From Candidatus Thioglobus autotrophicus (GTDB lineage Bacteria > Pseudomonadota > Gammaproteobacteria > PS1 > Pseudothioglobaceae), in the NCBI RefSeq assembly GCF_001293165.1, contig NZ_CP010552.1, positions 124,001 through 188,000 on the forward strand: a DNA stretch of 64,000 bases. Direction: 5' to 3'. Below the pieces are notes generated by a model. That model did no database searches. It was given only the letters and a program-made list of their open reading frames with translations, and had not been told where the DNA came from. The position numbers and the translations under genes were made by a program. This document shows, in pieces, positions 50,014 through 54,206 of the stretch (positions within the stretch are counted from its first letter, which is position 1; every line of letters starts with the position of its first letter).

Positions 50014-51105
50014 CTAAAATTCAACAATATGATATTTAGTTGACCTTCCTCCACCAGTAGATTTTAAAATACCTTTACTTGCAAGATCTATCAAGTCTCT
50101 TGCTGCAGTTATATCAGTAGCACTCACTAAATTTTTGTATTTTTTCCTAGATATACCATCATTAAAATCTTCAGTTTCCAATAATCTACCAACCAATTTT
50201 ATTTGTCTATCATTCATACTAATATGACGATATCGATCCCAAAACAAAGTTGTGCTTCTGATTTTATTGAGCTTATGCATGCTACTTTGCGCCGCCAAAC
50301 TCACTTGCTCCAAAAACCAGACAATCCATTGAGTAATATCTAGCTCACCTTTTTGGCATTTTTCTAAAACTTCATAGTACTGTTTTTTATTTTTCTCTAT
50401 CTCAGTTGATAATGAATAAAGCCTAATATCAGTATTCTCGGCATCTGCAAGACAGCGCTCTGCAATCATTCTAGAAAAACGTCCATTACCATCATCAAAT
50501 GGATGAATAGTGACAAAGTAAAATTTTGCAATAGCTGCTTTAATATAACCAGAATTAATATTGTCAGATTGCAGCCAATTTAGGAATACATTCATTTCAT
50601 CATTGATACATTGACGGTCAAGGCATGGCGCTTCAAAATGAATCTGCTCTTTGCCAAATCTACCTGAAATTACTCTCATTTGCGTGTTGCGATAATTGCC
50701 AATAATTAAATCATCAAGAATTGGCTTATCAAGAAACATCATCCCATGCCATTTAAATAGGTCATTTTCTGTTAAGGTGTTTGACGAACTTCTAATAGAT
50801 TCAAGTAAAACATCAATAAAAGCCTCAGAATTTCTAGATATCTGCCCCACCTTGCCGATACCTAACCGATTGGCAATGCTTGAACGTACAGAGTCTCGAT
50901 CAAGAATTTCACCTTCAATTTTTGCACTTGATAACGCCTCATCTAGTAATGATTTAGATTCTAATGCAAGTTTTTTATCCTGATCTAGTTCATTAGCCAA
51001 TAGCATTAATGGAGAAACGTGACTGATTACCTCGGACAGAGCTGACATGACTATTTCAGCATCATATTCAAAATTTGGCCAATTGCCTTGTTGCCATATC
51101 CACAT
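50014..51105 (-). CDS. Fic family protein with DUF4172-type N-terminus
   Basis: A 363-residue Fic enzyme. The N-terminus MWIWQQGNWPNFEYD is the DUF4172 start found in a large Fic subgroup. SSAKIEGE near residue 59 contains the inhibitory motif S-x-x-x-E-G (Ser60, Glu64). The catalytic loop HPFDDGNGR is at 201-209 with His201. A winged-helix-like tail follows near 300-360. It sits 15 bp before the integrase start codon, in the same direction, as the only cargo of the tRNA-His element. It is not a close copy of the Fic protein at 7550-8596. Target unknown. Confidence 0.9.
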   Translation of the reverse strand: MWIWQQGNWPNFEYDAEIVMSALSEVISHVSPLMLLANELDQDKKLALESKSLLDEALSSAKIEGEILDRDSVRSSIANRLGIGKVGQISRNSEAFIDVLLESIRSSSNTLTENDLFKWHGMMFLDKPILDDLIIGNYRNTQMRVISGRFGKEQIHFEAPCLDRQCINDEMNVFLNWLQSDNINSGYIKAAIAKFYFVTIHPFDDGNGRFSRMIAERCLADAENTDIRLYSLSTEIEKNKKQYYEVLEKCQKGELDITQWIVWFLEQVSLAAQSSMHKLNKIRSTTLFWDRYRHISMNDRQIKLVGRLLETEDFNDGISRKKYKNLVSATDITAARDLIDLASKGILKSTGGGRSTKYHIVEF

Positions 51106-51389: not shown

Positions 51390-52118
51390 TTAACTGAAAT
51401 ATTCTTCCAATTCATCAGCACCACCAATGTATTTACCACCAATAAAAACTTGTGGTGTCGAGCTTTTACCGCTTACCGCTCTAAGAGATCTAGAAGTAAT
51501 ATGTTGATCAAGCTCTATCTGTTCTACATAAATACCCTGTTGATTTAATAGCGTTATCGCACGCTCACAGTGTGGGCAGCCTTTTCTACTAAACATAGTG
51601 GCAGTCTCTGGAATATTGGCATTTTTATTAATATATTGAAGCATCGTATCAGCGTCAGAAACTTCAAAAGGGTCGCCTTCTACTTCAGGCTCAATAAACA
51701 TTTTCTCAATTGTGCCATCTTTAACCAGCATAGAATATCTCCAAGATCGATTGCCAAATCCTAGCTCGTCTTTATTAACCAGCATACCCATGGCTTTAGT
51801 AAATTCACCACTTCCATCGGGAATCATTAAAACGTTTTCAGCTTCTTGGTCTTTACGCCACTCATTCATAACAAAAGTATCATTAACCGATATACAAACC
51901 ACTTCATCAACCCCATTGGCCTTTAAAACTGGCGCTAATTCATTGTATCTTGGTAGGTGAGAAGATGAACAGGTAGGCGTATAAGCACCAGGAAGAGCAA
52001 ATACTACTACTGTTTTGTTATTAAAAATATCCTCGGTCGATAAATCAACCCACTGATGATTTTTTTGAATTTTAAAATTAATAGATGGAATTTTATTTCC
52101 TGTGTTGTTTTTTAACAT
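51390..52118 (-). CDS. Peroxiredoxin-glutaredoxin fusion (hybrid Prx5)
   Basis: A 242-residue two-domain antioxidant enzyme. Residues ~1-160 are a Prx5-type peroxiredoxin with the peroxidatic cysteine in PGAYTPTCSSSHLP near residue 49. Residues ~168-242 are a glutaredoxin with the active site CPHC (FSRKGCPHCERAI near 182) and GKSSTPQVFIGGKYIGGADEL near 215. The fused glutaredoxin recycles the peroxiredoxin with glutathione, so one protein reduces peroxides. It is divergent from an OxyR-like regulator 104 bp away, which probably controls it. Confidence 0.93.
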   Translation of the reverse strand: MLKNNTGNKIPSINFKIQKNHQWVDLSTEDIFNNKTVVVFALPGAYTPTCSSSHLPRYNELAPVLKANGVDEVVCISVNDTFVMNEWRKDQEAENVLMIPDGSGEFTKAMGMLVNKDELGFGNRSWRYSMLVKDGTIEKMFIEPEVEGDPFEVSDADTMLQYINKNANIPETATMFSRKGCPHCERAITLLNQQGIYVEQIELDQHITSRSLRAVSGKSSTPQVFIGGKYIGGADELEEYFS

Positions 52119-52222: not shown

Positions 52223-53074
52223 ATGCTGCCTTCTATTAAAAACCTCCAGTACCTTATTACACTTAGAGAGACGCTACACTTTTCTAAGGCATCAGAAAAA
52301 TGCTTTGTTAGTCAATCAACTTTAAGTGCAGGAATCGCCAAATTAGAGCAAATCCTACAAACAACTCTAGTTGAAAGGAATAATAAAAAAGTAGTCTTCA
52401 CCTCAATAGGAGAAAAAATAGTATTACAAGCAATGCTGGTCATATCAAATACTAAAGAACTGACAGATATGGCAAAAACCAACTTCCTTGAATCTGAAAT
52501 AGTTGTTGGCACCATACCGACCATATCAGCTTATATTCTGCCAAATTTTTTGAGAAATATAGAAAAAATATTCCCAAAATTAAAAATATCCTTTGTAGAA
52601 GATACGAGTGATAATTTATTAGAAAAACTAAATCAAAATAAAATCGATTTTGCAATTTTTGCTTTTCCCTATGACTTGCCTGATGGTGTTGAGGGCTATG
52701 AGTTGTTCAGAGATCCCTTATGTTTGATTCAACATAAAGATCGAAAAAATGAAAAAATTGACAGTGGAGATCTATTATTACTGGAACAAGGTCATTGCCT
52801 AAGAGCTCATGTAATGCAAGGATATGCCATATCTGAAAAACAACTATCTAGTTTTTCTTGCTCTAGTGTTTCTACTTTAGTAGCTATGATTGACATGAAC
52901 CTTGGTATGAGTTTTTTGCCTAAAATTGCCATTGATTTTGGTGTGCTGTCACCCTATCCAAATATAATCGCCAAGTCTAATTGCCAAGCATCAAGAGGTA
53001 TTGGCATTGTTTATAGAAAAAATAACTATCAAGCTGAAAATATTAAGAAAATAGCCGAAAATTTACGAACATAA
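52223..53074 (+). CDS. OxyR-like LysR-family regulator with one conserved redox Cys
   Basis: A 283-residue LysR-type regulator. The N-terminal helix-turn-helix is FSKASEKCFVSQSTLSAGIAKLE (residues 20-42), and the rest is a periplasmic-binding-protein-like sensor. LLLLEQGHCLRAHVMQGYAI places Cys192 where OxyR has its peroxide-sensing Cys199. The position of the resolving Cys208 is Tyr201; the nearest alternative is Cys213 (SSFSC). It is divergent from the peroxiredoxin-glutaredoxin gene, the classical OxyR target, which supports a peroxide-response role. Sensing by an unusual disulphide or by sulfenate only is inference. Confidence 0.85.
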   Translation: MLPSIKNLQYLITLRETLHFSKASEKCFVSQSTLSAGIAKLEQILQTTLVERNNKKVVFTSIGEKIVLQAMLVISNTKELTDMAKTNFLESEIVVGTIPTISAYILPNFLRNIEKIFPKLKISFVEDTSDNLLEKLNQNKIDFAIFAFPYDLPDGVEGYELFRDPLCLIQHKDRKNEKIDSGDLLLLEQGHCLRAHVMQGYAISEKQLSSFSCSSVSTLVAMIDMNLGMSFLPKIAIDFGVLSPYPNIIAKSNCQASRGIGIVYRKNNYQAENIKKIAENLRT

Positions 53075-53102: not shown

Positions 53103-53351
53103 TTAAGTATCTATACCCATTTCTCGCAGCATTAAATACGCCTCAAGATCATCACACCCGCCCACATGCTTGTTACCTAAAAATACTTGCGGATAAGTCA
53201 GTTCATCGGGTGCCATTTTAAGCATCTCGTCGTTTGTCCAATTAACCTCATCAACTAAGCGAGTCTCATACTCAATACCCTCTTCGTCAAGCATTAATTT
53301 GGCTTGAGTACAAAATGAGCAATTTGGCTTGGTCCAAATAATATTTTTCAT
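53103..53351 (-). CDS. Glutaredoxin
   Basis: An 82-residue thioredoxin-fold protein with the dithiol site in TKPNCSFCTQAK (CSFC near residues 12-15), the TYPQVFLGNKHVGGCDDLEAY block near 57 (cis-Pro and glutathione-binding GG-D-D), close to GrxC-type proteins. It is 12 bp downstream of hslO in the same direction, a redox pairing. The extra Cys in VGGCDD is common in the family. Confidence 0.92.
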   Translation of the reverse strand: MKNIIWTKPNCSFCTQAKLMLDEEGIEYETRLVDEVNWTNDEMLKMAPDELTYPQVFLGNKHVGGCDDLEAYLMLREMGIDT

Positions 53352-53363
53352 GATTAATCCTAG

Positions 53364-54206
53364 TTAGTACGTCGTATTAAAAATACGATCAACATCGTCT
53401 TTATTAAAAAACAAATGTTCATTACAAATTTCATTATGAATGGCAATTTCTCCATGTTCTTTGAGTAAGTCACGTGAATCTTGTTCGCCCAAATTCTGGA
53501 TGATTTTTTCAAATCGCCCCTTATCTTTCGGACATTCGTAACTAACCCACTCAGCATTAAAAAGCTCCACTGTTTCTTCGTGGAATAGACGGTGCAATAA
53601 AGACTCTGTATCAAGGCTAGTTAATTCTTCTTGAGTAACAGTATCTGCCAAAATACCAACTCGATGCCAACCCTCGCTGTCGTATTGATCGGCATCTGGC
53701 ATTCTTTGCAAGAGCATAGCACTCAAGTTATCAGGGGTTGAGCTTACCCATAATTTAGACTCTAATTGCTCAGATTGAGCAAAGTAATCTTCAAAGGTGG
53801 CAATCAAACCTTGGGCGTTTCTAGGTACTAATGATTGAAAACTGTGGTCAGTTTGTGCATTGTATAAAGTAGCAACAATTTGCCCTTCGCCTAGAATTTT
53901 ATCTAAAGAGTCATCCTCTTTAATAACACCTTCTGCTCTAACCATACCGCGAATTTTTAGATCATCACTCACCTCAACCAACAACAAATTTACAATCCCA
54001 TCACCCTGAATTTGTAAAGTAAGCTTGCCTTTGTGCTTCATACCATTGGCCAGAAAAATCGCCAAAGCGCTCAGCTCTGCAAATAATTGACGCACCAAAG
54101 GGTTGTAGCCTCGATTTTGAATCATATCTTGCCAAGCATCATCGAGTGATAAGTGCTGGCCGCGAACGTTCAAATCTTTAAATAAAAATCTTGTATGTAT
54201 ATTCAT
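53364..54206 (-). CDS. hslO: Hsp33 chaperonin with altered zinc site
   Basis: Hsp33 is a chaperone switched on by oxidation of four zinc-binding cysteines (C-x-C and C-x-x-C). The 280 residues align over the whole family: LFAELSALAIFLANGMKHKG near 41, GQIVATLYNAQTDHSFQSLVP near 108 and LFHEETVELFNAEWVSYEC near 207. However, the first pair reads C225-P-K (second Cys missing) and the second reads C261-N-E-H (last Cys replaced by His264). So two of four thiols are absent. Zinc binding by Cys/His may persist, but the usual disulphide switch cannot form in the same way. Next to a glutaredoxin gene. Confidence 0.9.
   Translation of the reverse strand: MNIHTRFLFKDLNVRGQHLSLDDAWQDMIQNRGYNPLVRQLFAELSALAIFLANGMKHKGKLTLQIQGDGIVNLLLVEVSDDLKIRGMVRAEGVIKEDDSLDKILGEGQIVATLYNAQTDHSFQSLVPRNAQGLIATFEDYFAQSEQLESKLWVSSTPDNLSAMLLQRMPDADQYDSEGWHRVGILADTVTQEELTSLDTESLLHRLFHEETVELFNAEWVSYECPKDKGRFEKIIQNLGEQDSRDLLKEHGEIAIHNEICNEHLFFNKDDVDRIFNTTY

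Follow-up and report, generated by a model that had tools for sequence, protein, structure and literature searches.

In the classical redox-regulated chaperone Hsp33, four thiolates hold a zinc ion, and oxidation is described as leading to disulfide formation, zinc release and unfolding of the linker (PMC10598452, PMC4735815). The thiols of this switch are termed 'four absolutely conserved' in the account given by PMC4735815, from which the E. coli numbering of the cysteine motif (C232, C234, C265 and C268) is also taken, and the linker is characterized by the motifs TxxxxE and RL(Y/F), as defined in PMC7423844. According to the same source, fewer than 10 of 1579 homologs depart from conservation of the second cysteine. 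Literature titles and abstract openings yielded no description of a two-cysteine Hsp33 clade, a weak absence given that such a search leaves subscription papers mostly uncovered. Sequence comparisons across genomes indicate that two-cysteine Hsp33 is a real, clade-wide variant of this known chaperone.

The window, which is the whole stretch of 64,000 nucleotides analyzed here from the Candidatus Thioglobus autotrophicus genome, encodes one such protein on its minus strand. The gene and the codons relevant to its putative switch are as follows, with residues placed by alignment to the E. coli Hsp33 structure 1i7f, the reference for position numbering.

53364..54206, minus strand: hslO homolog encoding an Hsp33-like chaperone of the two-cysteine subfamily, 280 aa (open reading frame and profile match)
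53532..53534, minus strand: C225 codon, first redox cysteine (E. coli C232), kept (1i7f alignment; invariant in 83/83 distinct full-length variants)
53526..53528, minus strand: K227 codon, second redox cysteine position (E. coli C234), lost (1i7f alignment; mostly Q or K in relatives)
53523..53525, minus strand: D228 codon, three residues after the first cysteine (C1+3) (Asp/Asn/Glu in 83/83 variants, Ser in 199/220 canonical proteins)
53436..53438, minus strand: H257 codon, possible new metal ligand (histidine counts in variants versus canonical proteins)
53433..53435, minus strand: N258 codon, third redox cysteine position (E. coli C265), lost (1i7f alignment; relatives)
53424..53426, minus strand: C261 codon, fourth redox cysteine (E. 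coli C268), kept (1i7f alignment; invariance in variants)
53415..53417, minus strand: H264 codon (C4+3), possible new metal ligand (histidine counts in variants versus canonical proteins)

The reading frame at 53364-54206 is open for 280 amino acids and constitutes the sole Hsp33 match of the 1.51 Mb single-contig genome, a search of which in its entirety found no second, canonical Hsp33. The encoded protein matches PF01430 with an E-value of 4.8e-58 (197.2 bits, above the curated cut-off of 21.4) and can be aligned with Hsp33 through to its C-terminal end, both on the PF01430 profile and on 1i7f. Its N-terminal domain and metastable linker are retained in the sequence, the linker motifs reading T189-x4-E194 and R206-L-F208, and so is a constrained C-terminal switch domain, but only the outer cysteines of the latter, C225 and C261, are present. 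Against the NCBIfam HslO equivalog NF001033 the protein scores 182.2 bits, below the cut-off of 244. A scan for regulatory signals was uninformative, with 6 promoter-like sites, versus 9.3 in shuffles, and 3 terminator-like sites, versus 1.5 in shuffles.

Alignment with E. coli Hsp33 equates C225 with C232, K227 with C234, N258 with C265 and C261 with C268. The four-cysteine set of a CxC and a CxxC motif is absent, the inner two cysteines having been lost, one from each motif, and just two of the four thiols that form the zinc site of the HslO equivalog are found in the window sequence. A preliminary description of this DNA had recognized that two of the four redox cysteines are missing, and the alignment identifies them as the second and third; its reading of the second motif as C261-N-E-H gave letters that do occur in the protein, but the equivalent of CxxC is N258-E-I-C261, with C-N-E-H lying after it. 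Since the window protein was found not to carry the four-cysteine set, its sequence places it in an Hsp33-like two-cysteine subfamily of the broad PF01430 family, and not among the strict redox-regulated Hsp33 proteins. Judging from the residues at these positions, the classical neighboring disulfides C1-C2 and C3-C4 cannot form, and therefore the trigger must differ from that of classical Hsp33.

To establish how widely this pattern is distributed, we read the four cysteine positions in Hsp33 loci from increasingly distant genomes. All 83 genomes searched in the window's order belong to a single family, and an Hsp33 match was found in 27 of them; the two-cysteine site is present in all 22 family genes that are readable at all four positions, and a further match is interrupted by a contig end. 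Searches of the 29 genomes of another genus of the family returned no Hsp33 match. Named relatives with matches comprise Candidatus Thioglobus, Bathymodiolus symbionts and similar genomes, one Thiomicrorhabdus and one betaproteobacterium with four cysteines. In a survey of the class, Hsp33 was found in 196 of 370 gammaproteobacterial genomes, and 193 loci were read, three loci of the window's family being left out. All four cysteines are present in 186 of these; the two-cysteine pattern occurs in four loci, all from family f50, and in genome G364, and the rest are one locus without the second cysteine only and one fragment without the first.

The order to which family f50 belongs carries the variant throughout; because a named Thiomicrorhabdus (L048) falls within its rows, it probably corresponds to Thiomicrospira and its relatives. 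Hsp33 was found in 61 of its 62 genomes, and the 61 proteins read all keep the first and fourth cysteines and lack the second, with Asn at the third position in 60 and an unreadable third position in one. In the order of G364, where 43 of 60 genomes have Hsp33, the two-cysteine form is confined to three of the 43 (G364, G548 and G525; loci L087, L336 and L339), which have Asp in place of Asn at the third position. Searching a phylum-wide sample of 398 genomes with a profile of the variants' C-terminal domain returned four matches at 102 to 128 bits, corresponding to the window's genome and these same three, followed by a gap down to 84 bits; among the best 30 loci read, 4 are variant and 26 canonical. 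In total, more than 80 genomes besides that of the window were found to carry the two-cysteine pattern.

Phylogenetic trees were inferred on N-terminal and linker columns, with the C-terminal domain left out. On these trees, all variants form one clade, both among 170 rows that include 46 variants (SH-aLRT 97) and in a smaller tree of 75 of those rows with 19 variants (bootstrap/SH-aLRT 100/97, the bootstrap being not fully settled), where the window's family is nested within the f50 rows. Repeated independent losses of the inner cysteine pair are needless to account for a single clade. The variant of G364, G548 and G525 was likely acquired by transfer between lineages, since 40 of the 43 proteins of their order are canonical. 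A gammaproteobacterial Hsp33 that lacks the second cysteine only (L151, in G177) falls outside the two-cysteine clade.

The two remaining cysteines are under constraint. An alignment of 83 distinct full-length variants has 20 invariant columns out of 276, to which the 56 columns of the C-terminal domain contribute four, namely C225, G240, C261 and F276; in 38 of the 83 there is no cysteine besides C225 and C261. For the C-terminal domain, four of six pairs give dN/dS ratios of 0.06, 0.03, 0.05 and 0.02, with dS near saturation in each; of the remaining two, a very close pair with few changes yields 0.34, and the other could not be computed because of saturation. The residues around the site also differ from those of canonical proteins. 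Of 85 distinct rows, 82 have Asn and 3 have Asp at the third position, and the C1+3 position is Asp, Asn or Glu in all 83 variants, versus Asp or Asn in 6 of 220 canonical proteins, 199 of which have Ser. His257 and His264 are jointly present in 66 of 83 variants versus 1 of 220 canonical proteins. Among the 82 variants readable at H224, H257 and H264, all carry at least one of these histidines and 69 at least two, compared with 68 and 9, respectively, of 220 canonical proteins.

These histidines are not invariant. One or both of H257 and H264 are absent in 17 of 83 variants, one of which ends before the second histidine, so that a strictly Cys2His2 zinc site is not supported as a feature of the subfamily as a whole. 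Moreover, H257 and H264 need not be ligands, because the 1i7f alignment places both histidines in E. coli Hsp33, beside its four cysteines; their joint presence in the variants may derive partly from a common ancestor. H224 occurs in 7 of 9 variants without H264 versus 4 of 73 with it (Fisher p 2.8e-6), whereas canonical proteins present a weak association of opposite sign (p 0.04). On the tree H264 changes just two times and a test on independent pairs for the H264-H224 exchange was not significant (median p 1), such that the counts offer no more than a hint of H224 compensating for lost H264.

An AlphaFold model of the window protein (mean pLDDT 80, from 18 sequences, with residues 220-224 below 50) predicts that the fold of the Hsp33 N-terminal domain and linker is kept, as residues 1-219 match E. 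coli Hsp33 (3m7m) with a Z-score of 25.8 and 2.5 A over 217 residues. Residues 219-280 match the E. coli redox domain (1xjh) with a Z-score of 5.9 and 5.0 A over 62 residues. As unrelated entries in the same list of matches reach Z-scores of 5.4 to 6.5, this match does not stand out, and the model alone does not support the fold of the switch domain.

From the residues that are kept and gained, we infer that the two-cysteine site has either been rebuilt to bind metal or consists of two bare thiols, with only one disulfide, across the motifs, being possible. The best explanation, which we put forward tentatively, is that the window protein is a functional member of a distinct and old subfamily of two-cysteine, Hsp33-like holdases, with a switch predicted to be tied by metal at rest. 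At rest, the two knuckles would be held together, most likely by a metal on C225, C261 and one or two histidines; these would be H257 and H264, or H224 in some relatives, with the acidic C1+3 residue perhaps helping. Stress, in the form of heat or of oxidation or modification of the two thiols, would open the site, upon which the linker would unfold and unfolding proteins would be bound. With one thiol per motif, C225-C261, across the motifs, would be the sole disulfide possible inside the site, compared with the two neighboring disulfides of classical Hsp33. The preliminary description had envisaged a protein that is constitutively active, differently triggered or zinc-bound through cysteine and histidine: a different trigger is borne out by the impossibility of C1-C2 and C3-C4 disulfides, and the Cys/His site has gained comparative support, short of proof.

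The main rival to a rebuilt site is a metal-free and largely redox-independent holdase, always on or heat-gated through its metastable linker, in which the cysteines would serve in packing or in a minor role. Two zinc ligands have been lost, and zinc loss is realistic given that an algal Hsp33 missing one cysteine is reported in PMC7423844 to be without zinc binding and more sensitive to mild heat and oxidation; PMC4735815 further describes a single linker-destabilizing mutation that renders E. coli Hsp33 constitutively active. A dispensable site, however, sits poorly with the invariance of C225 and C261 in 83/83 variants while most of the domain varies, and with the enrichment of histidine and acidic residues around it, and we regard this alternative as possible but rather doubtful.

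Another mechanism would involve the glutaredoxin gene next to hslO, which is listed here together with two redox genes that lie near it in the window.

53103..53351, minus strand: glutaredoxin gene, active-site letters CSFC, 12 bases downstream of hslO (open reading frame and profile match)
52223-53074, plus strand: OxyR-like LysR regulator (cysteine comparison with relatives)
51390-52118, minus strand: peroxiredoxin-glutaredoxin fusion, divergent from the OxyR-like gene

Under such a mechanism, C225 and C261 would be glutathionylated or persulfidated, opening the domain, and in the window's genus the adjacent glutaredoxin would reverse the modification. Single unpaired thiols would suit mixed disulfides, the cells are sulfide-exposed and sulfur-oxidizing, and hslO and the glutaredoxin gene, likely on one transcript in the window, adjoin each other in 10/10 loci of the genus. 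Using the window's glutaredoxin as query at an E-value of 1e-4, a search that could miss distant glutaredoxins, none was found beside hslO in the 12 other intact loci of the family, one of them with just some 120 bases available downstream, or in 30 loci of f50's order. Because the adjacency was found in the genus only, the glutaredoxin neighbor seems later than the cysteine change, and coupling to it is rejected as the general cause of that change. The glutaredoxin at 53103-53351 may partner the two-thiol chaperone specifically in this genus.

The metabolic context of the clade bears on the same mechanism. The two-cysteine branch consists mostly of sulfur-oxidizing bacteria, and among 32 variant carriers selected for the test, 30 have SoxB above its cut-off, compared with 20 of 40 carriers of canonical Hsp33 from one order; the exceptions are G364, with no SoxB over the cut-off, and G055, below it on a split match. 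The association is suggestive but confounded by descent, as the carriers belong mostly to two related groups, and sulfur oxidation as a strict correlate is rejected by G364 and by the presence of SoxB in half of the canonical carriers tested. With a glutaredoxin that is younger than the variant and a carrier without detected SoxB, a switch by thiol modification appears unlikely. Similarly improbable is an inverted or otherwise changed switch, in which a C225-C261 disulfide would tie the motifs as zinc does, oxidation alone would lock the domain and reduction, sulfide or persulfide chemistry or heat would open it, as an adaptation of sulfur oxidizers with a metal site of the form C-x-x-Asp plus C-x-x-His.

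The suggestion in the preliminary description of a shifted redox system, based on the glutaredoxin and on the altered cysteine of the OxyR-like protein, did not hold up, the former being genus-specific and the latter trait uncoupled from Hsp33. At the positions which we take to be C199 and C208 in E. coli OxyR numbering, the OxyR-like protein and its relatives keep the first in 20/20 rows read and miss the second in 19/20, and a further cysteine, possibly a relocated partner, lies 21 residues downstream in 20/20 rows. Homologs with E-values of 1e-105 or better are present in 18 of the 29 genomes of a genus where none of the 29 has an Hsp33 match, and coupling to OxyR is ruled out by the occurrence of this changed-cysteine gene in genomes without any such match. 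The pair formed by the fusion gene and the OxyR-like gene lies beside hslO in the window and one close relative only (L008 and L031), among loci read of which several have short flanks. A Fic-domain protein with DUF4172 is also encoded near these redox genes (50014-51105, minus strand).

Decay of the gene, whose switch domain would be degenerating toward the loss seen in some of the family's small genomes, would fit the presence of a match in just 27 of 83 family genomes, the stop inside the matched stretch in G050, one of the 22 readable genes, and the state of hslO in four genomes of the small-genome genus g6 (G036, G039, G041 and G042; L024-L030), where it survives only in broken pieces, most with internal stops. 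The window frame, however, is intact, dN/dS is low in four of six pairs, the identical two cysteines are lost and the identical two kept over 83 distinct proteins, and the gene is present in 61/62 genomes of f50's order, which together make decay very unlikely. A sequencing or assembly error or a private mutation of the window genome, which the preliminary description would have recognized by four cysteines in close relatives, is ruled out for practical purposes, as nothing was found in its favor, the pattern is shared by every readable family relative and by f50's order, and no readable family relative has four.

Hsp33 is a standard model of a redox switch, and bacteria of a clade in which each motif has a single thiol offer a natural experiment on it. 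They can reveal which component the switch requires, be it zinc, the two disulfides or a foldable linker alone, and whether sulfur-based energy metabolism alters how cells construct their thiol switches. Because they match the broad family profile, two-cysteine proteins may also be annotated as ordinary redox-regulated Hsp33.

Compared with known systems, the window protein is closest to redox-regulated Hsp33 (HslO; E. coli, PF01430, NF001033), with which it shares the N-terminal domain, the linker motifs, domain order and length, as well as the predicted fold of residues 1-219. It departs from E. coli Hsp33 in having two cysteines instead of four, which makes C1-C2 and C3-C4 disulfides impossible, and from the NF001033 HslO equivalog in its score of 182 bits, under the cut-off of 244. 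Chlamydomonas HSP33 (Segal and Shapira 2015, as cited in PMC7423844 and PMC11664415) is likewise a natural Hsp33 without part of its cysteines; it is eukaryotic and has reportedly lost one cysteine and zinc binding (PMC7423844), whereas the window's clade is bacterial and has lost two, one from each motif. TrypOx of Trypanosoma brucei, as described in PMC7423844, is also an Hsp33 homolog whose C-terminal domain has diverged (25% identity to E. coli), but, unlike the window protein, it keeps all four cysteines and has an extended linker.
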